A stretch of 39,024 nucleotides of DNA from Lacticaseibacillus camelliae DSM 22697 = JCM 13995. Lineage in GTDB: Bacteria; Bacillota; Bacilli; Lactobacillales; Lactobacillaceae. Numbering within the stretch: the stretch's first letter is position 1; the number at the start of each line of letters is the position of its first letter. A program made the translations under genes and the position numbers. The DNA lies in the NCBI RefSeq assembly GCF_001311195.1, contig NZ_BBAJ01000019.1:1-39024 (forward strand). The letters run 5' to 3'. Below, in pieces: positions 16,256 through 29,962 of this stretch. The notes beneath the pieces were generated by a model, which worked only from the letters and a program-made list of their open reading frames with translations, did not search any database and had not been told where the DNA came from.

Positions 16256-17518
16256 ATGAAGAAGCAAAAAGCACTCGGAGCTTTGACTTTGGTTTTGGGG
16301 GCATCATTGCTGCTGGTCGCTTGCGGCTCTAAATCAGGCGGCGGCTCTGACAAGACGGTTGCAAACAAAGACAAACCAGTCGTCTTCTATAACCGGCAGC
16401 CATCGAACTCGAGCAACGGCAAACTGGATATGACGACCCTGAAGTTCAACAAAGACACGTACTATGTCGGCTTTGACGCCAAGCAAGGGGCCGAAGTTCA
16501 AGGCAAGATGGTCAAGGACTACATCACCAAGAATATTTCAACAATCGATCGCAATCATGATGGCATCATCGGGTATGTCCTCGCTATCGGCGACGTTGGC
16601 CACAACGACTCGATTGCCCGCACGCGCGGCGTTCGTGAGGCCTTAGGGACCGGCGTGAAGAAGAGCGGCGACATTAACTCTGCACCGGCCGGGATGAACA
16701 CGGATGGCAAGTCCGGCATTGTTAAGGACAGCAAGCTGACCGTCGGCGGTAAGACATACACGATCCGCGAACTGGCTTCGCAGGAAATGAAGAATAACTC
16801 AGGCGCGACCTGGGATGCAGCGACCGCGGGTAACGCGATCGGGACCTGGTCCTCAAGTCTGGGCAACAAGATCGATGTTATCGCCTCTAATAACGACGGC
16901 ATGGGCATGGCGATGTTCAACGCGTGGTCCAAGAAGAACAAAGTGCCAACCTTCGGCTACGATGCGAACTCTGACGCCGTTGCGGCGATTGGCGAAGGCT
17001 ACGGCGGTACCGTTAGTCAGCACGCCGACGTGCAAGCTTACCTGACCCTGCGCGTGCTGCGCAACGCCCTGGACGGCGCCAAGAAGGGTGTCGGGATCGA
17101 AACAAAGGACAAGACGGGCAACGTTCTGGCCAAGGACACCTACGCATACCGCGCTAACGAGCGTTCCTACTACGCGATGAACGTGCCGGTCACAGCGGAC
17201 AACTACAAGGATTTCATGAACCCAACCAAGACTTATCCGGATGCTTCCAAGCAGCTTTCGACCAAGACCTCACCGGAAAAGAAGGTATGGCTGGACATCT
17301 ACAACTCTTCAGATAACTTCCTGGGTTCCACTTACCAGCCACTGCTGAAGAAGTACGCGAAACTGATGAACCTCAAAGTTGAATTTATCGGCGGCGACGG
17401 CCAGACCGAATCCAACATCACTAACCGGCTGGGCAACCCGAGCCAGTACGACGCCTTTGCGATCAACATGGTGAAGACTGACAACGGCTCCTCATACACG
17501 TCCATTCTGAGTCGGTAA
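16256..17518 (+). CDS. mglB: Galactose/glucose-binding lipoprotein MglB, apparently circularly permuted
   Basis: This is the extracytoplasmic sugar-binding lipoprotein of the mgl ABC transporter. A signal peptide ends in the lipobox LVAC (Cys23). What follows does not start at the usual first strand but at KPVVFYNRQPS, which matches E. coli MglB past residue 100. The family then continues in order: YYVGFDAKQ, the calcium loop DRNHDG (98-103), GHNDSIAR, W186, SNNDGMGM and PTFGYDAN. The missing first segment is found at the C-terminus (342-420): DIYNSSDNF, then DAFAINMV. Ligand residues equivalent to Asp14, Phe16 and Asn91 of E. coli thus lie at 353, 355 and 404. The ATG follows AAAGGGAGGAAG. 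The frame is intact at 420 residues. Confidence 0.93.
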   Translation: MKKQKALGALTLVLGASLLLVACGSKSGGGSDKTVANKDKPVVFYNRQPSNSSNGKLDMTTLKFNKDTYYVGFDAKQGAEVQGKMVKDYITKNISTIDRNHDGIIGYVLAIGDVGHNDSIARTRGVREALGTGVKKSGDINSAPAGMNTDGKSGIVKDSKLTVGGKTYTIRELASQEMKNNSGATWDAATAGNAIGTWSSSLGNKIDVIASNNDGMGMAMFNAWSKKNKVPTFGYDANSDAVAAIGEGYGGTVSQHADVQAYLTLRVLRNALDGAKKGVGIETKDKTGNVLAKDTYAYRANERSYYAMNVPVTADNYKDFMNPTKTYPDASKQLSTKTSPEKKVWLDIYNSSDNFLGSTYQPLLKKYAKLMNLKVEFIGGDGQTESNITNRLGNPSQYDAFAINMVKTDNGSSYTSILSR

Positions 17519-17649: not shown

Positions 17650-19187
17650 ATGCAGGATTCAACATTACTAACACCAGAAAAGCCAGTCATTGGCGATGAT
17701 GTGATGCTGGCGATTCGTAACCTGAGCAAGTCATTTGGCCGCAACCGGGTCCTTCAACACATCGATATGGACGTGAAGAAGGGATCCGTGATGGGCCTGA
17801 TGGGTGAAAACGGCGCCGGCAAGTCCACCATGATGAAGTGCCTTTTTGGGATCAAGACCCGGGATGAAGGCCAGTTTTACCTCGATGGTAAGGAGGTGTC
17901 CTTCGCCGGCCCCAAGGATGCCTTGGAAAACGGAATCGCGATGGTCCACCAGGAACTCAACCAGGCGCTGGACCGCAGCGTGCTCGACAATCTTTTTCTC
18001 GGGCGCTACCCAACGACCTCACTCGGGTGATCAACGAGGCGCAGATGCGGCGCGAAGCCACGGAGCTCTTCCGGCGGCTGGGGATGACGGTCAACCTGAC
18101 GCAGCCCATGCGCAAAATGAGTGTGTCACAGCGGCAGATGGTCGAGATTGCCAAGGCGATTTCCTACCATTCAAAGGTGATCGTGCTCGATGAGCCGACT
18201 TCCTCGCTGATGGACCGCGAAGTGGAAAAGCTGTTCGACATGGTGCGGATGCTGAAGAACCAGGGCATCTCGATCATCTTCATCTCGCACAAAATGGACG
18301 AAGTGTTCCAGATCTGCGATGAGGTGTCTGTGCTGCGTGATGGGCACTTGGTCATGACCAAGAACACGAAGGATACCAACCTGAACGAACTGATCAAGGC
18401 CATGGTTGGCCGGCCGTTGGATAACCGGTTCCCGCCGGTCGACAACAAAGTCGGCGACACGATTCTGTCGGTCCAGCACCTATCGACCAAGTACGCGCCG
18501 TATCTGCAGGACATCTCGTTTGACGTGGGGCGCGGTGAGATCTTTGGCCTTTACGGCTTGGTCGGCGCCGGGCGCACGGAATTGCTCGAAACCATTTTCG
18601 GGGTGCGGACACGCGCGGCGGGTCGCGTGTACTTCAACGGCAAACTGTCTAACTTCAATTCGGCCAGAGACGCGATGGAGCATTGGTTCGCGATGATCAC
18701 TGAGGAGCGCAAGGCCAACGGCTTGTTCCTGAAAGGCAGTTTGACCTTCAATACGACCATCACCAACTTGAACGCGTATCGCCGCGGGCCGGCGCTGTCG
18801 GACCCGAAAATGACCAAGGCCACTCAGCACGAGATCAAGGTCATGAACACCAAGACCATGGGTCCAGACGAACTGATCGCCAGTTTATCAGGCGGCAATC
18901 AGCAAAAGGTCATCGTCGGTAAATGGCTGGAACGTGCGCCGCAAGTGTTCATGATGGACGAGCCAACGCGTGGGATCGACGTCGGGGCGAAGTACGAAAT
19001 CTACGAGCTGATCATCAAGATGGCCAAAGAAGGCAAGACAATCATCGTGGTTTCGTCAGAAATGCCCGAAATCCTAGGCATCACGAACCGGATCGGCGTT
19101 ATGTCGGACGGTCGGCTGGCGGGGATCGTCGATACCAAGAAGACCAATCAGGAAGAGCTGCTGAGGCTCAGCGCGAAATACATGTAA
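17650..19187 (+). CDS. mglA: Sugar ABC transporter ATPase MglA, frameshifted in this sequence
   Basis: This double ATPase powers galactoside import. The first domain has Walker A GENGAGKST, the signature MSVSQRQMVEIAK and Walker B VIVLDEPTSSL. The second has the degenerate Walker A GLVGAGRTE, signature LSGGNQQKV and Walker B VFMMDEPTRGIDVG. This asymmetry is normal for monosaccharide (CUT2) transporters. The ATG at 17650 follows GGAAAGGAAG. The frame breaks at the GGG at 18025-18027; one added G joins TTSLG to VINEAQMRRE, giving 512 residues, the usual length. It sits between mglB and mglC. Confidence 0.93.
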
Positions 19188-19200
19188 GGGGGAGACACAC

Positions 19201-20848
19201 ATGGCAGAAGATAAAGTGCTAACCGCGCAGGCCGAAGCAGAACTGCGCAAGCCGATTGATGATGCGGTCGGCAAGATTCAGGCTGAAGTTAATGAGCTGC
19301 GCAAGGACGGGACGGACCAGGTCATCAGTCTGAACAGTCACATCGAGGCGGTCAAACGCGACAAGAGTCTGAGTAAGGCGGAGCGCGATGCCGCAATCGA
19401 AAAAGATAAGCAGGCACTGGTCGGGGCTAAGCAAATTGAGGCCAAGAACAAGGATCAGGTCAGCAAGCTGGTCTCAGAGGCCGAAAGTTACATCAAAGCG
19501 CACTTCGACAAAGAGTATTACCAGCCGTTGCCGCGAGCTGTGCCGAGGAAAAGGTCATCGCCAAAAAGGCTTATGATGAGCAAGTGGCCCGCTTGGAGCA
19601 GGAGCACAAAGCAACCGTCATCAAGCTTTCTGATCGCAGCGAGATCAAAGAGGAGAATTATGTTCATAAGAACAAACTCTTTGACGCGAAAGTGACCCTG
19701 CAGGCGCGCCAGAGTCAAATCAAAGACCGCCAGCACGAGGCGTTCAACTACCAGTATCACCTACTTGACCTGTTGCGGATGTCTAAGTTCACCTTCTCGG
19801 AAAACATGAAGCAGAAGTGGGAGAACTACAAGTACACGTTCAACCGCCGCGATTTCCTGCTGCGTAACGGCTTGTACTTCGCCATCATCATTGTGTTCAT
19901 CATTTTGGCGATTATCACCCCAATCATCAAGGGGTCCTCGCTTTTGACCTACAACAACATCCTCAACATCCTGCAACAGGCGTCACCGCAGATGTTCTTG
20001 GCCCTTGGGGTCGCCGGCCTGATCTTACTTACCGGGACCGACCTTTCCATTGGGCGAATGGTCGGGATGGGCATGACGGCTTCTACCATCATCATGCACC
20101 AGGGCCCCAACACTGGGGAAGTCTTTGGCCACCTGTTTGATTTTTCGAAAATGGGACTGTGGTCACGGGTCATCTTGGCGTTGGTCGTCTGCATTGTCCT
20201 TTCGACGGTACTCAGCGCCATTGCTGGGTTCTTCACTGCGCGCTTTGGGATGCACCCCTTCATTTCAACCATGGCGAACACGCTGATCATCTTCGGCTTG
20301 GTTACCTACGCGACGAAAGGGGTGTCCTTCGGGGCGATTGATCCAGCCATTCCAAGCATGATTATTCCGCAGATTGGCGGCTTTCCATCAATCATTCTGT
20401 GGGCGATCGCGGCGATTGCCATTGTCTGGTTCATCTGGAACAAGACGCGCTTTGGTAAGAATCTGTACGCGGTTGGTGGCAACCCTGAAGCGGCTTCGGT
20501 TTCCGGGATTTCCGTCTTTGCCGTCACGCTTGGTGCCTTCGTTCTGGCCGGCATTCTCTACGGCTTCGGTTCTTGCTTGAATGCGCCGGATGGTCGGGTC
20601 AGGCTCTGCGGCTTATGGCCAGGCTGGGAAATGAACGCCATTGCCGCCTGCGTTGTCGGTGGGGTTTCCTTCACCGGTGGGATCGGCAAAATCTCCGGGG
20701 TCGTCGTCGGGGTCATCATCTTCACCGCGTTGACCTACGCGTTGACCATTCTGGGGATCGACACGAACCTGCAGTTCGTTTTTTTTCCGGGATTATTATT
20801 CTGGTCGCTGTCACCCTCGATTCTCTGAAGTATGTTCAGGAGAAATGA
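19201..20848 (+). CDS. mglC: Sugar ABC transporter permease MglC with long N-terminal coiled-coil extension, frameshifted
   Basis: The C-terminal 330 or so residues are a CUT2 permease: helices from LYFAIIIVFIILAI, the family sequence LGVAGLILLTGTDLSIGR, NKTRFGKNLYAVGGNPEAA, and AIAACVVGGVSFTGGIGKISG. Before the first helix lie about 220 charged residues rich in Lys, Glu, Gln and Ala with no membrane segment, likely a cytoplasmic coiled coil; E. coli MglC has nothing comparable. Four indels are suspected: near 19522-19526, at 20588-20589 and 20622-20623 (a compensating pair), and in the T8 run at 20779-20786. Repair restores AAYGQGWEMNAIAA and the end ILVAVTLDSLKYVQEK, 549 residues. GGGGGAG precedes the ATG, 13 bp after mglA. 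Confidence 0.88.
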
Positions 20849-21127: not shown

Positions 21128-22742
21128 ATGGGGAAGTACAGCGTACTGTTCGTTGAAGACGCACCCATTGCGTCAAGTTTGAAGGAGATTGTACCGTGGG
21201 CTGAGCTGGGGTTTCAGGTCATCGGTAGCGTGTTTTCGACTGAGGCGGCACTGAGCATGATCAGCGCTGCCAAGCCGGATGTGGTGCTGACCGAGGTGAA
21301 AATGAGCGACCTCGCGGATCTGGCCGTCGTCAAACGAGGCAAGGCCGCATCGCCGGAGACGGCGTTTGTGATCCTTACCGACTGCAATGATTTTGAGTGT
21401 GCCCAGCAGGCGATGCGGCTGGGCGTTGCCGATTACCTGACGATGCCGTTGAATGTGGCGGAGCTCAAGGCGGTGATGACCCGTTTGTGTCAGACGCTTA
21501 ACCAGCACCGCAACACCGTTCAGAACTGGCAGGCGATGCAGCACTACTACCGCGACTCGCTGCCGGTGATGCAGGCTAATTTTTACGCGGCACTGATCGA
21601 TGGCCAGGTCGAACCGGCGACCCTTGAGGCCTATTTGCGTGATTACCAAGTAGGCTTGACCGGACCTTTTTACGCCTGTCTGGTGCTGCATACCTCCAGC
21701 GCGCAGGCGCCGGATGGTAAAGATGTTACCGCCTTGCGAGCCGAGGTCCTCAAGCAGGCAAACGATTTTTTTGGCGCGCTGTGGACCACCGTGGCGTTCT
21801 GCTATTTGCGCAACACGGTCATGGTGGTCGAACTGCCTGCCGAAAGCGATGCGGCGGCCTTGACCGATGATGCTGACCGGTTCTGTAAGCTGATCAAAAG
21901 TCAGCTTGGGGCCGTGATCACCATCGGCATTGGGGCTGTCACTGACGATTTGCTGGATTTGCCCAAGGCCTATCACGGTGCGCGCACGGCGGTGTCTTAC
22001 CGCAGTCTGTATGGCGCCTGCAAAGTGATCAATATCAATGAAGTGGCACCGACCGAGATCACCGATTTCACCCCGATTTCTGACGCAGCCTTGGCGGACC
22101 TGTTCAAGGTCGTTCACGTCGGGCCGGACGAGGCAATTGCGGAAGCGGTCGAGGCTTACCTGGCAAATGTCAACCAGACAGCCACCTGTATGGCGCATCA
22201 CACGGTCGCAATCAATGACTTGGTTTCTTCACTGTATCGGTTTGCGGTGAATAATCACCTCCAGATTCCTGAGCTGACCGATGATCCGAAGGCGCTGTAC
22301 GCGCGGCTGCCGGAATTGTCGCCTCAGACGCTGAGCTTGTGGCTGCTTGACCTGTGCAAACAGCTGAATCGGCAGCTTGCGGCCGCGCGTGACAACTCGT
22401 CAACGGCCTTGATTCAAAGCGCCAAGGAGTTTGTCCGGGCCCATTACAGCGATGAGCAGCTGTCCCTTAACGACGTGTGTCAGGCGCTGGGGGTGTCCAA
22501 CTCGTACTTTTCGACGCTGTTCAAGCGCGAGGTGGGCCAGTCCTTCATTACTTACCTAACCGATTTTCGCATGGAGCGGGCGTCCCGACTGCTACTGGAA
22601 ACAACCGAAAAAAAGCCAGGCCATTGGCCATTTGGTCGGGTATGCGGATCCTAACTATTTCAGTTCTGTCTTCAAAAAGCACTTTGGCCGTTCACCAATG
22701 CAGTATCGCGGCGGCCTAGCGAAAGTCTCCAGCAGCAAATGA
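21128..22742 (+). CDS. YesN-like response regulator with degenerate receiver and AraC-type HTH, frameshifted
   Basis: The N-terminal receiver domain (1-120) is followed by a long middle region and a C-terminal AraC/XylS domain with two HTH motifs (LSLNDVCQALGVSNSYFSTLFK, then IGHLVGYADPNYFSSVFK). The acidic pair E10-D11 and T84 are kept. The phosphoacceptor Asp is Glu56 (VVLTEVKMSD) and the conserved Lys is Met106 (DYLTMPL). Phosphorylation in the normal way is therefore unlikely, and no histidine kinase gene is near. An extra A in the A7 run at 22608-22614 hides the true end; repair gives 537 residues to 22742. CAGGAG precedes the ATG. It follows mglBAC and probably controls it (inference). 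Confidence 0.88.
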
Positions 22743-25000: not shown

Positions 25001-25015
25001 ATGGGAGGTGATGAA

Positions 25016-25732
25016 ATGGCGAAAGAATCGTTATCTGAAAAGCTGACCAAGACGCTCGCAACCCTGGTGACTGAGCAGCTTTGTCCCAATGACAAACTAC
25101 CTTCAGAGCGGGCGCTCAGTGAGCAGTATCACATGAGCCGCAATACGGTGCGGGCTGCGCTCAACCAGTTGTTCTTGCAGGGGCTCATTTACCGCAGCCC
25201 AGGGAAGGGCACGTTCGTTGCCGAACCGCTGGATGATCGTGCCGACGTGGCCGCAGCATTCAGCTTCACCCAGCAGATGGGGGCAATGAAGCGCAATCCG
25301 GAAAGTAAAGTGGTTGGCCTCAAGCAAGTGCCTGCCTCGCCCATGGTTGCCGATCACCTGCGCCTTAACCACGGTGCCGCAGTGTATGTGCTTGATCGCA
25401 TCCGAATGGCAGATCATCGCCCGATGATGGCTGAGCGAAGCTACCTGCCCGCCGCTGTGCTGCCAAATTTGAGCAAGGCGTTGCTAAAGGACACCCCTCT
25501 TTATGACCTGCTCGAGCATCACTACGGCATTCACATCGCGACGGTGGATGAAACCTTTTTCGCCGACTTGATGTCCGCGGAATACGCGCAATTACTGGAC
25601 GTCCCACCAAATTCGGCTTGCCTGAAGATTCGCCGCACCGCCTTTACCAGTGCCGGCAACATCATTGAATACACCATGAGCGCCGCGCGCGCTGACCAGT
25701 TTGTCTATCACGTACAGCATGCGAACCACTAA
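25016..25732 (+). CDS. gnbR: GntR/HutC-family transcriptional regulator GnbR
   Basis: The N-terminal winged helix reads LPSERALSEQYHMSRNTVRAALNQL, followed by GLIYRSPGKGTFVAEP. The C-terminal UTRA ligand domain carries VYVLDRIRMADHRPMMAERSYLP and ends with IIEYTMSAARADQF, as expected for the HutC subfamily. The start is ATG 25016, with GGAGG 7 nt upstream, giving 238 residues; ATG 25001 would place the RBS inside the gene. It heads an operon in the order known for gnbREFGBCDA. Amino-sugar phosphates are the likely effector (inference). Confidence 0.9.
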   Translation: MAKESLSEKLTKTLATLVTEQLCPNDKLPSERALSEQYHMSRNTVRAALNQLFLQGLIYRSPGKGTFVAEPLDDRADVAAAFSFTQQMGAMKRNPESKVVGLKQVPASPMVADHLRLNHGAAVYVLDRIRMADHRPMMAERSYLPAAVLPNLSKALLKDTPLYDLLEHHYGIHIATVDETFFADLMSAEYAQLLDVPPNSACLKIRRTAFTSAGNIIEYTMSAARADQFVYHVQHANH

Positions 25733-25756
25733 ATCAATTTACTGGAGGAGACCACT

Positions 25757-26937
25757 TTGTTTGAAGAAACCACTGACACGCTGACCAAGATGGGAGCCCA
25801 GATCACGACTGCGGAAATCAAGCAGCAGCCCGATCTGTGGCTGGAAGCATTTGCCAATTATGAAAAAGAACAAGCCACCGTCTCGACTTTCCTGACGGCA
25901 GTTGCCAGCCAAGCCGGCGGCCGGCCGGTCCGGGTGCTGTTTACTGGGGCCGGCAGCTCACAGTATGTCGGGGATACCGTCGCGCCGTACCTGCAGGCGC
26001 ACGGTGACCGCAGCCGCTTCACGTTCGAGTCGGTTGCCACGACGAACATTGTCTCAGCGCCTGGCGACTACTTGACCGCAGATGAGCCGACCCTGCTCGT
26101 GTCGTTTGCCCGCAGTGGCAATTCGCCGGAAAGCCTGAAGACAGTCGAGCTGGCTGAGCAGCTCGTGAGCTCACTTCATCAAATCAGCATCACCTGTGCG
26201 CCGGATGGCCAATTAGCCTCAAGGCGCAAACCGAGCCGCAGACACTGCTGCTGATGCAGCCAGCCCGGTCGAATGACAAGGGGTTTGCCATGACGGGAAG
26301 TTTCTCCTGCATGTTGCTGACCGCGCTGTTGGTCTTTGACACTGCCAGCCTTGATGCTAAGCGGCAATGGGTGGAAACGCTCGCCGCAATGGGCCGAGAA
26401 GTGATTGCGCGGGAACAGACGATTCAAGCGCTGGTCGACCAGGATTTTGAGCGCATCGTTTACCTGGGTACGGGCAGTTTGAGCGGGCTGGCCCGGGAGG
26501 CGCAGCTGAAGGTCCTTGAGCTTACGGCAGGGCGGTACGCCACCATGTTTGACAGTTCCATGGGCTTTCGCCACGGGCCGAAAAGCTTTGTGAACGCGCA
26601 GACGCTGCTTTTCGACTTTGTTGCCAATGATTCTTACAGCAGACAATACGACCTTGACCTGTTGGCCGAAGTCAAAGGCGACAACATTGCCCCTGTCGTC
26701 ATGGCGGTCGGGACCCATTCAGCACAGGATTTTGCCGGCAGTGGCTTCTATTTTGAACACGGTTTAGCGACCATGCCGGAGGCTTACCAAGCGCTGCCGG
26801 ATGTGATGTTCGCGCAGACGCTGGCGCTGCTGGCCTCGATCAAGGTCGGCAATCGGCCTGATACCCCTTCACCGACTGGCACCGTTAACCGGGTCGTCAA
26901 AGGCGTGATTTTGCACGACTACCCAGCAGGGCGTTGA
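25757..26937 (+). CDS. gnbE: SIS-domain sugar-phosphate isomerase/deaminase (AgaS type) GnbE, frameshifted
   Basis: AgaS-type enzymes turn galactosamine-6P into tagatose-6P and ammonia. Two SIS domains are visible: VLFTGAGSSQYVGD with LVSFARSGNSPESLKTVELA, and YLGTGSLSGLAREAQLKVLELT with MGFRHGPKSFV. The start is a TTG at 25757 with GGAGGAG at 25744-25750. A missing C near 26217-26218 breaks the frame; repair joins DGQLA to LKAQTEPQTLLLM, giving 393 residues, the family length. It follows gnbR by 24 bp. In the pathway it acts after NagA deacetylates GalNAc-6P. Confidence 0.9.
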
Positions 26938-26959
26938 GCTTCGAGAGGAGTGAAAAAAA

Positions 26960-28120
26960 ATGAGTGAGTACGTTCATGCCGCCAAGTTTTTTTCTGCCGC
27001 ATGCGGTCGAGACCGGCGGTTATCTCGAGGTCACCGCGGCCGGCAAGTTTGGGGCCTACCTCCCGGAAGGCGTCCGGCCGACCGGCAAAATCGTCGAGCA
27101 GTCTGGCCGGTGGATCGCGCCAGGCTGGTTGACACTCACATTCACGGCTTGCTCGGCCACGACGTCATGGATAACGACTGGTCCGGGATCGCCGCGATGA
27201 GCCAACACCTGGTTGAGGCCGGGGTGACCAGCTGGCTGCCGACTACGCTGACAGGGTCATTCGAGCAGCTGAAGGCCGTGTGCACCACAATCGCCGACCA
27301 TGCCGGCGAGGAGCCTGGCGCCAAGATCCAAGGCATTTACTTCGAAGGGCCTTACTTCACCACTGAGCACAAGGGCGCGCAAAATCCGAAATACTTTAAG
27401 AATCCAAGCGTGGCTGAATTTAATGAGTGGCAGTCAGCCGCGCAGGGTTTGGTGAAGAAAATTGCGATTGCCCCGGAGCGGCCAGGAGCGGTGGCCTTTA
27501 CGCAGGCCGTTGCGGCGGCCGGTACCGTGGTGGCACTGGGTCACAGTGATGCGACATTTGAGCAGGCCAAAGCGTGTGTGGACGCCGGGGCCACGGTGTT
27601 CACCCACACGTTCAACGGCATGAGTCCGCTGAGTCACCGTGCACCGGGCATGGTGGGGACGGCAATGGCGCTTGAAGGGGTGACTGACGAGCTGATCTGC
27701 GATGGCCATCATGTCCGACCCGAAGTCGCCACGATGCTGATTCGCTTAGTGGGGCCGGAACACATCGCCTTGATCACCGATTGCATGCGTGCCGGGATGA
27801 TGCCGGATGGCGATTACACGCTGGGAGAGTTTGCGGTTTACGTCAAGGACGGCATGGCGCGGCTCAAAGCTGGCGACAGTCTGGCCGGCTCAGTGCTGCA
27901 GCTTAAAGATGCGCTTAGTCATCTGCTTGCCTGGGGCGCAGGCACCCCTGCGGCCATTGTCAAAATGGCGACGCAAACGCCAGCGGCCTCCTGTGGCATT
28001 CAACACCGCTGCGGAAGTATTTTACCCGGTCGGGCGGCCGACTATCTGGTTTTGGATCCTAACCTGCACCTTCTTGAAACGCACCTGGATGGCGCGTTGG
28101 TGTACCAGGCGGGCCACTGA
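26960..28120 (+). CDS. gnbF: N-acetylhexosamine-6-phosphate deacetylase (NagA type) GnbF, frameshifted
   Basis: The enzyme removes acetate from GlcNAc-6P or GalNAc-6P. DTHIHGLLGHDVMD, YFEGPY, LGHSDATFEQ, FTHTFNGMSPL and the catalytic LITDCMRAGMMPDG are all in family order. Two compensating indels near the start, an extra T in the T7 run at 26987-26993 and a missing G at 27123-27124, leave the frame open but scramble residues about 12-55. Repair gives AKFFLPHAVETGG and WIAPGLVDTHIHG. The length is then 386 residues. GAGAGGAG precedes ATG 26960. In the gnb operon the main substrate would be GalNAc-6P or GlcNAc-6P released by the neighbouring glycosidase. Confidence 0.92.
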   Translation: MSEYVHAAKFFSAACGRDRRLSRGHRGRQVWGLPPGRRPADRQNRRAVWPVDRARLVDTHIHGLLGHDVMDNDWSGIAAMSQHLVEAGVTSWLPTTLTGSFEQLKAVCTTIADHAGEEPGAKIQGIYFEGPYFTTEHKGAQNPKYFKNPSVAEFNEWQSAAQGLVKKIAIAPERPGAVAFTQAVAAAGTVVALGHSDATFEQAKACVDAGATVFTHTFNGMSPLSHRAPGMVGTAMALEGVTDELICDGHHVRPEVATMLIRLVGPEHIALITDCMRAGMMPDGDYTLGEFAVYVKDGMARLKAGDSLAGSVLQLKDALSHLLAWGAGTPAAIVKMATQTPAASCGIQHRCGSILPGRAADYLVLDPNLHLLETHLDGALVYQAGH

Positions 28121-28165
28121 CCGAGCGGTACAGGTCAAATGACCACCTGAAGGAGAACTGAGCGG

Positions 28166-29962
28166 ATGACAACTTTCACAGTGGACCAAGAATTTTTGCT
28201 CAACGGTCAGCCATTCAAAATCTTGTCCGGGGCGATTCACTATTTTCGCGTTCATCCCAGTGATTGGCAGCACAGTTTGTACAACCTGAAGGCGCTGGGG
28301 TTTAACACCGTCGAGACCGTTGTCCCGTGGAACCTGCACGAGGCCCATGAGGGTCAATTTGACTTCGCGGGCTGGTTGGACCTCCAGCACTTTCTGCGGA
28401 CCGCCCAGGCACTTGGGCTGTATGCCATCGTACGGCCCTCCCCGTACATTTGTGCAGAGTGGGAATTTGGTGGGCTGCCCGCCTGGCTGCTGACCCAACC
28501 CATGCGGCTGCGAGAAAACGATCCTGCATTTTTGGCGGCAGTTGACCGCTACTATGATGCGCTCATGCCCCAGCTTGTTGGTTGCCAGGTGACTCACGGT
28601 GGCAATGTTTTGATGATGCAGGTGGAAAACGAGTACGGCTCATACGGCGAAGATCACGCGTACATGCGCGCGTTAGTCAAAATGATGCGCCAACACGGCG
28701 TGGACGTGCCCCTAGTCACCTCAGACGGGCCATGGCCAGCCGCGCTGAACGCCGGCAGTCTGATTGATGATGGCATTTTGGCGACGGGTAACTTTGGCGG
28801 CCGGAGCATGCGCAATTTCGATTGCTTGGCAGCCTTTCACCGCGCGCATGGCCGCAAGTGGCCGCTCATGTGCATGGAATTTTGGACCGGCTGGTTTAAT
28901 CGCTGGGGTGAGCCAATCGTGCGGCGCTCGCCTGAAGAGACTGCGGCGGCACTGCGCCCCGTCATTGAACGGGGCAGTGTGAATCTTTACATGTTCCACG
29001 GCGGGACCAGTTTTGGGTTCATGAACGGCACGTCTGCGCGCCAGGCGCATGATCTACCACAGGTGACGTCCTACGACTATGACGCGCTGCTTGATGAACA
29101 AGGCAATCCGACGGCCAAGTACGACGCCATTCAGCAAATGGTCCATGAGGTGCTGCCGGCGCTCCCTCAGGCCAAGCCGTTAGTCAAACCGACGCTCAAG
29201 CCGGCGACAGCACCGTTGATCGCCAAGGTTTCGCTGTTCGCGGTTCTTGACCAGCTGGCCCAGCCAGTGGCGGCTCCGTATCCGCAAACGCAGGAGGCCT
29301 TAGGGCAAACGGGTGGTTACACGCTGTATCGCAGCCACCCAGTGCTCGAATCCTCCGATACCGGCGCGGCTTTGAAGCTTCGAATCATTGACGCGCGCGA
29401 CCGCATCCAAGCGTTTGTTGATGAAAAGTGGCTCGGAACACAGTATCAGGAAGCCATTGGGGATGCACTGACTTTGCCTGACGAGCACGGTCGGCATCAG
29501 TTGGATGTGCTGCTGGAAAACATGGGGCGGGTGAACTATGGCCCGAAGCTCGGGGCGGCGACCCAGCACAAAGGGGTGCGCACCGGTGTGATGGTCGATC
29601 TGCACTTTATTCAAGGATTTGTTCAGCACGCGCTGGACCTCGACCGGGCCCCGCAGCTCGATTTTTCCAGAGGGTGGCATGCAGGTGTGCCAAGTTTTTA
29701 TCAGTACCAAGTAACACTTGATGAACCGCAAGACACGTACCTAGATTGTCGCGGCTTTGGTAAGGGGGTGATGCTGGTTAACGGGTTTAATGTCGGCAGA
29801 TTTTGGGATCTGGGCCCAACGTTTTCGCTGTATGTGCCAAAGGGGTTGCTGCATGCAGGCGAAAACACGGTGATCGTATTTGAGACCGAGGGGCGTTTCA
29901 CCGACAGTCTGAAGTGGGTTGACCACCCGCTTGTAGCGGATAGCAAAACAAAGGAGGAATAA
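28166..29962 (+). CDS. gnbG: Glycoside hydrolase family 35 beta-galactosidase GnbG
   Basis: The frame is intact at 598 residues. The N-terminal TIM barrel has GAIHYFRVHPSDW, VVPWNLHE, RPSPYICAEWEFGGLP, the acid/base Glu in VENEYGSYG (about 154) and the nucleophile in CMEFWTGWFNRWG (about 235). Beta-sandwich domains follow. There is no signal peptide, so it acts in the cytosol, like BgaC of streptococci and GnbG of L. casei. It would cleave the phosphorylated beta-1,3 galactosides brought in by the adjacent PTS. Start ATG follows AAGGAG at 10-nt spacing; a GGTCA-AA-TGACC repeat precedes it. Confidence 0.95.
   Translation: MTTFTVDQEFLLNGQPFKILSGAIHYFRVHPSDWQHSLYNLKALGFNTVETVVPWNLHEAHEGQFDFAGWLDLQHFLRTAQALGLYAIVRPSPYICAEWEFGGLPAWLLTQPMRLRENDPAFLAAVDRYYDALMPQLVGCQVTHGGNVLMMQVENEYGSYGEDHAYMRALVKMMRQHGVDVPLVTSDGPWPAALNAGSLIDDGILATGNFGGRSMRNFDCLAAFHRAHGRKWPLMCMEFWTGWFNRWGEPIVRRSPEETAAALRPVIERGSVNLYMFHGGTSFGFMNGTSARQAHDLPQVTSYDYDALLDEQGNPTAKYDAIQQMVHEVLPALPQAKPLVKPTLKPATAPLIAKVSLFAVLDQLAQPVAAPYPQTQEALGQTGGYTLYRSHPVLESSDTGAALKLRIIDARDRIQAFVDEKWLGTQYQEAIGDALTLPDEHGRHQLDVLLENMGRVNYGPKLGAATQHKGVRTGVMVDLHFIQGFVQHALDLDRAPQLDFSRGWHAGVPSFYQYQVTLDEPQDTYLDCRGFGKGVMLVNGFNVGRFWDLGPTFSLYVPKGLLHAGENTVIVFETEGRFTDSLKWVDHPLVADSKTKEE

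Follow-up and report, generated by a model that had tools for sequence, protein, structure and literature searches.

The mglB gene of Lacticaseibacillus camelliae encodes a genuine natural circular permutant of MglB. With very little doubt its product is a solute-binding lipoprotein of the TpMglB-2 type (Type Ic / Cluster Bc) that belongs to an MglBAC-type ABC importer, in which the permuted chain rebuilds the clamp around a ligand likely to be D-glucose and/or D-galactose, and whose topology likely goes back to a single duplication or fusion. The preliminary description of this DNA implied that such a natural form was new. This has to be withdrawn: the available parts of PMC4990184 (2016) present the solved permuted topology, name it Type Ic / Cluster Bc, note its occurrence in Gram-positive bacteria and report permutation, glucose binding, a conformational change and a fourth hinge for TpMglB-2 of Treponema pallidum. 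Natural permuted MglBs have thus been known since 2016, and since the topology is already published the L. camelliae protein belongs to a known kind, of which it is a further case. The new detail is an extra helical arm on the partner permease, which has no counterpart in ordinary relatives.

Organisation of the permuted MglB

The window analysed was a stretch of 39,024 nucleotides. Its mglB gene was divided into the following parts:

16256..17518, + strand: mglB, permuted glucose/galactose-binding lipoprotein of 420 aa (P0001), intact frame of 420 codons
16256..16324, + strand: signal peptide with lipobox LVAC (residues 20-23, Cys23), read from the sequence
16376..17218, + strand: residues 41-321, the counterpart of what lies between EcMglB mature residue ~86 and the C-terminus of canonical MglB (hhalign E 5e-31) and including the ligand residues N46, H116, D118, R122, W186, N213, D236 and Q255 (residue table)
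17219..17278, + strand: linker, residues 322-341, leading from the old C-terminus to the moved segment; the alignment of the body stops at residue 321
17279..17515, + strand: moved N-terminal segment, residues 342-420, with D353 and F355 (Pfam PF18610 at 341-411)

The mature chain would thus open with what is strand four of a canonical N-lobe, run through the C-lobe to the old C-terminus, return by way of an extra linker and finish with what are normally the first three strands of the N-lobe. The domain databases reflect this arrangement. Pfam recognised positions 77-257 of PF13407, the general periplasmic-binding domain, at residues 36-275, leaving out the first 76 positions of the model, and then a separate family, PF18610 (Peripla_BP_7), covering the end of the protein at 341-411. 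With NF011924, the NCBIfam equivalog of canonical MglB, the protein reached 98 bits in two stretches against a cut-off of 420.

For comparison we used 87 permuted sequences, which include three duplicates (L024=L028, L025=L029, L027=L034) and therefore represent 84 distinct ones. The intact frame and proper signal peptide had already been pointed out in the preliminary description. A possibility mentioned in the available parts of PMC4990184 is that the permutation persisted on account of its fit with lipid anchoring at the N-terminus. A lipobox-like motif was indeed present upstream of the core in 77 of the 87 permuted sequences. However, the same pattern occurred in 15 of 17 Bacillota loci with canonical order, and ten permuted sequences were devoid of the motif; among six of these that were inspected, three had a TAAC variant and three no Cys at all. 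This explanation is therefore unlikely. The three sequences without the cysteine (L041, L048 and L075, Clostridia records) are permuted MglBs with a signal-like N-terminus, so some Gram-positive permuted MglBs are not lipid-anchored.

Order of the two parts

The permuted order was tested with a canonical hidden Markov model (HMM) built from 15 MglBs, one from E. coli and 14 from Bacillota. When residues 342-420 were placed first, the best-domain score of the L. camelliae protein rose from 56.2 to 71.8 bits, as the comparison proposed in the preliminary description would have it, whereas 200 reordered controls with a shuffled segment gave a mean of 57.9 bits (SD 1.4, maximum 66.2). The whole-sequence score increased less, from 101.2 to 110.0 bits, the body alone reaching 98.1. 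The best-domain score was raised in 87/87 permuted sequences, with a median gain of 18.0 bits. Other rotations that rejoin the end of the protein to its start also scored high, namely 76.7-77.1 bits for cuts at 140-320 and 72.7 at 340; cuts at 120, 360 and 380 gave 66.7-67.2 bits and cuts at 60-100 gave 42.3-43.9. Because several rejoining rotations score high, this test demonstrates that the two parts are adjacent, not one exact break.

Homology of both parts to canonical MglB emerged more clearly from profile-profile comparison. The body (residues 41-341) aligned with canonical MglB from PVVFFN onward (E 5e-31) and reached the last canonical residues (VDKDNLAEF with VTADNYKDF). The segment 342-417 aligned with the canonical N-segment over 65 columns (E 6.3e-5; 22% identity in one pair), residues 343-411 being matched. 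The break falls between EcMglB mature residues ~84 and 86, earlier than residue 100, after which it had been placed at first. The segment was also compared with eight further canonical windows, two of them sharing part of the N-segment; seven gave lower scores and one no alignment.

These results bear on a question left open in 2016, as far as the available parts of PMC4990184 show: whether the topology is a true permutation or the capture of a foreign segment. According to the second alternative, which is raised there, the C-terminal segment has its source in another gene and became similar to the N-terminus of MglB by convergence alone. In its favour, the segment alone scores low with the canonical HMM: the values for all segments ranged from 2.4 to 10.5 bits, with 6.0 for L. 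camelliae, and of 1,740 shuffles made, the 1,238 that were scored reached 5.7 at most. The profile match to the position-matched canonical N-segment, however, persisted without the two Treponema sequences (E 1.3e-4), and its score of 28.1 was reached by 0/100 column shuffles (maximum 17.3). Moreover D14, F16 and the AIN[LM]V strand coincide in the moved segment and the canonical N-terminus, and nothing of the canonical C-terminus is missing before the linker. An origin from a different gene is hence quite improbable, and so is one of the situations that would have undermined the original proposal, a segment unrelated to the MglB N-terminus. Because the segment is homologous to the canonical N-terminus and preceded by a complete canonical C-terminus, a duplication-fusion is favoured: the most likely course would be a single event in which mglB was duplicated in tandem or fused and the outer parts were then lost.

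Ligand-binding residues

As a key we used the ten sugar-binding residues of EcMglB listed in Table 2 of PMC4990184 (available in part). Their equivalents in L. camelliae (EcMglB residue in second place) are D353=D14, F355=F16, N46=N91, H116=H152, D118=D154, R122=R158, W186=W183, N213=N211, D236=D236 and Q255=N256. All ten positions were invariant in 87/87 permuted sequences and nine are identical to EcMglB; the tenth is Gln, as in TpMglB-2 (Q215). The four residues His116, Asp118, Arg122 and Trp186 had been named correctly beforehand, in the numbering of the protein itself. Three ligand residues had been assigned to the moved segment. For D353 and F355 this holds, but N404 aligns with EcMglB Asn66, which lies outside the ten residues of the table, and the true equivalent of Asn91 is N46 in the motif FYNRQPS at the start of the protein.

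A putative EF-loop-like Ca site is formed by D98, N100, D102, G106 and D207. These residues align with TpMglB-2 and were invariant in alignments A1 and A2. The site is altered in the same way in both proteins, with Gly at the position of EcMglB Q142 and Asp at that of E205.

The position of EcMglB D14 distinguishes the two. TpMglB-2 of T. pallidum has Asn (N311), whereas the L. camelliae protein keeps Asp, as do Treponema saccharophilum and all 87 permuted sequences. To judge from the alignments the Asn looks like a lineage-specific change. Since it is common neither to T. saccharophilum nor to the 87 sequences, the L. camelliae MglB may be predicted to bind galactose better than TpMglB-2.

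Once folded, the chain is expected to give an ordinary clamp of two lobes, where D353 and F355 from its end come together with N46 from its start and with the residues of the C-lobe. The permutation would alter the order of the chain and leave the binding site as it is. The lipid-anchored clamp would capture D-glucose and/or D-galactose outside the cell, close, and hand the sugar to MglC/MglA.

Predicted structure and relation to TpMglB-2

The nearest solved chains were those of T. pallidum TpMglB-2 (Tp0684; 5JX2, 6BGC, 6BGD; E 6.6e-91 to 6.2e-89). The match is collinear and in one stretch, residues 37-418 of 420 corresponding to 19-385 of 5jx2. The search for such proteins described in the available parts of PMC4990184 asked for a match to TpMglB-2 of >90% with matching N-termini; the L. 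camelliae protein matches TpMglB-2 over more than this, and the N-termini agree. In the alignment the two matching parts are separated by residues 322-341, the counterpart of the linker/fourth hinge of TpMglB-2. The proteins share the permuted order, the break, the linker, the ligand residues and the lipoprotein character. They are 45% identical (alignment A1), and the L. camelliae protein is ~14 residues longer between positions 133 and 157.

An AF2 model built with 49 alignment rows (pLDDT 82.5, pTM 0.83; residues 1-34 below 50) gave four TpMglB-2 chains as the top Foldseek matches in the PDB (387-392 columns, E 4e-37 to 7e-35, TM by target 0.81-0.88). The next twelve entries were of the canonical GGBP type, with 282-290 columns, TM 0.56-0.61 and E values of 7e-11 or weaker, a shortening that is expected when a sequential aligner meets a permutation. 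Residues 342-420 contain the predicted strands 342-348, 373-379 and 400-404. Given the nearly full-length match to TpMglB-2, a structure in which the last 79 residues form a separate domain is not what the model suggests. Together with the order test, the two profile alignments and the match over residues 37-418, this upholds the original proposal that the protein is a natural circular permutation of MglB with the usual first part of the family, residues 342-420, at its end.

E. coli MglB/GGBP (2FVY, 2GBP) belongs to the same sequence family and has the same ten ligand positions, nine of them identical, but differs in its canonical order, the lack of the extra linker and a partner MglC without N-terminal extension. 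Canonical MglBs of Bacillota (e.g. L138-L150, L154) are mostly lipoproteins as well and are encoded in the same mglB-mglA-mglC gene set. They too differ in chain order and in the partner MglC. Among the titles listed by full-text literature searches, none concerned another natural permutant among binding proteins. Natural permutants are of practical value as scaffolds for sugar sensors, for which permuted forms are usually made by engineering.

Distribution and origin

A search of 60 genomes (that of L. camelliae and 59 relatives) with the protein gave matches in 12. Full-length permuted matches were present in L. camelliae itself and in three genomes of the same genus (G018, G014, G016; 97, 95 and 87% identity), all with the same order; the other eight were short and weak and included a canonical MglB in G058. 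PF18610 was detected in 6/201 genomes of the Lactobacillaceae and 2/398 of the phylum (L. camelliae included in both) and in 14/250 genomes of the family of G313.

A GTDB scan confirmed at least 551 relatives, of which 80 were examined, and the C-terminal segment was present in 80/80. These loci came from Lacticaseibacillus, Schleiferilactobacillus, Lapidilactobacillus, Enterococcus, many Lachnospiraceae and other Clostridia, Holdemanella, Lactimicrobium, members of the class Coriobacteriia, and one MAG labelled Bacteroidales. A permuted MglB is also encoded on a plasmid of T. saccharophilum. The natural permutation of a textbook binding protein thus persists across phyla. That the order is an assembly or sequencing artefact, which the several interruptions of the mglA, mglC and regulator frames and the state of the genome (84.5% complete, 161 contigs) might suggest, can be dismissed, as the preliminary description had expected, because the order is identical in the three genomes of the same genus and the C-terminal segment recurs in the 80 loci, in T. 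saccharophilum and in the crystallised TpMglB-2 chains.

In a tree based on the common part, 30 permuted and 13 canonical sequences were split by a single branch of length 2.42 with a support of 100/100; the tree took about one third of the permuted locus sequences, three permuted and five canonical sequences were absent from it, and it carried a long-branch warning. By this measure the permuted MglBs would fit one origin.

Permuted mglBAC genes were found on large plasmids in two phyla, in Agathobacter rectalis (L156) and on pTS2 of T. saccharophilum (L155). Such plasmids might allow horizontal spread, though both were typed as non-mobilizable.

N-terminal extension of MglC

In L. camelliae mglB is followed by mglA, mglC and a response regulator gene:

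17650..19187, + strand: mglA, ATPase; frame broken near 18027, continuous there in G018 and G014
19201..19835, + strand: helical extension (~210 aa) at the N-terminus of MglC, distributed over two frames of the assembled sequence
19836..20848, + strand: part of mglC that encodes the permease; the assembled sequence has additional frame breaks here
21128..22654, + strand: response regulator comprising receiver, GGDEF-like and AraC HTH parts; Glu takes the place of the phospho-acceptor Asp

The frame breaks between 17650 and 22654 affect mglA near 18027 and mglC, first near 19530 and again further on; the response regulator is probably broken towards its end. With mglA and mglC broken, transport in this strain is putative. 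Since relatives of the same genus have an intact mglC and a continuous mglA, sequencing error is the likely cause.

An MglC-like frame was found with 80 of the 87 permuted MglBs (77 distinct). In 77 of the 80 it starts 169-218 residues, mostly 209-218, before the start of EcMglC; in the remaining three (L. camelliae, L098 and L105) the extension lies upstream in another frame. Seven loci had no MglC frame. Three of them (L030, L089, L106) carry the extension just where the available DNA runs out, and in three (L075, L091, L107) the DNA ends before the MglC region. The seventh, L099, was considered as an exception to the linkage and set aside as uninformative: its mglA stops after ~350 residues and is followed by an unrelated gene, with no mglC. 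The extension was thus seen in 83/87 permuted loci (80/84 distinct), the other four not being judgeable. An MglC frame was present at 15 of the 17 canonical loci, in no case with such an extension (offset at most 21 residues).

The linkage was also apparent in wider surveys. MglC of T. saccharophilum has 562 residues, and its extension was matched at 30% identity (E 3e-13). In the Lactobacillaceae the same 6/201 genomes carry PF18610 and the extension. In the family of G313 (250 genomes) PF18610 occurred in 14, the extension in 15 and both in 14; in the one genome with the extension alone (G846) a contig of 3.4 kb begins inside mglA, so that mglB lies off the contig. Among 72,556 plasmid records the extension was present in two, those with the permuted MglB. 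A tree of a subset based on the permease without the extension, made by a quick method and carrying a long-branch warning, showed the same split of 25 against 16 sequences with one change.

AF2 predicted helices at 10-36, 39-54, 60-143, 147-194 and 200-214 of the extension, with pLDDT near 90 up to residue 190, while the membrane part of the whole MglC model was poor (mean pLDDT 67.0, pTM 0.43). No convincing family or fold emerged for the extension. When two MglC proteins were scanned with Pfam and NCBIfam, one had no match outside the permease part. The other gave three weak matches there (Pfam E 0.055, bearing a toxin T-domain name; NCBIfam E 1.3e-4 and 0.09), which we read as coiled-coil noise; the one with E 1.3e-4 is a lipoprotein family matched with 21 bits against a cut-off of 275. 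A profile search of the PDB with the extension had a best E of 0.28, and Foldseek with the whole MglC model a best E of 0.33, BAR-like and designed helical bundles being non-significant with E >1. Among the titles listed by literature searches on MglC and TP0686, none dealt with the extension, and in the available parts of PMC4990184 tp0686 is named once, for its distribution.

Permeases of this kind are oriented in the membrane such that the N-terminus is on the cytoplasmic side, and the extension would accordingly be cytoplasmic. MglB works on the outer side of the membrane, which makes it unlikely that the permuted protein and the extension touch directly. Coupling of the extension to a downstream histidine kinase was considered and is disfavoured, since no kinase is annotated in the 4.7 kb after mglC of T. 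saccharophilum and the extension persists at the Lacticaseibacillus/Schleiferilactobacillus loci, where the DNA examined gave no kinase match. The two features may be linked simply because their operon, of single origin, is inherited as a whole. We slightly favour the view that the Mgl importer was remodelled once in two parts, the permuted MglB and a ~210-residue, predicted all-helical cytoplasmic N-terminal domain of MglC, which co-occur in Bacillota, Coriobacteriia and Treponema and are absent from canonical systems, and that this domain has an undescribed dedicated regulatory or scaffolding role. The co-inherited extension offers a well-defined element of this importer type that can be put to the test and that seems not to have been characterised.

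Neighbouring genes

The Glu at the phospho-acceptor position of the response regulator was shared by four distinct relatives from Lacticaseibacillus and Schleiferilactobacillus (L022-L025). The Asp was present in 45 of 51 regulators found by BLAST. Downstream of the Glu-type regulators no histidine kinase match was obtained in the 4.1-5.2 kb examined, whereas the Lapidilactobacillus and Enterococcus loci showed a kinase match. Judging from these sequences, the Glu-type regulator may be constitutive after loss of the kinase.

Further downstream, at 25001-29962, a GntR/UTRA regulator, two SIS-domain frames, an amidohydrolase and a GH35 beta-galactosidase are encoded. Near the sugar importer, they probably constitute a cluster for the utilisation of galactosyl-amino-sugars.
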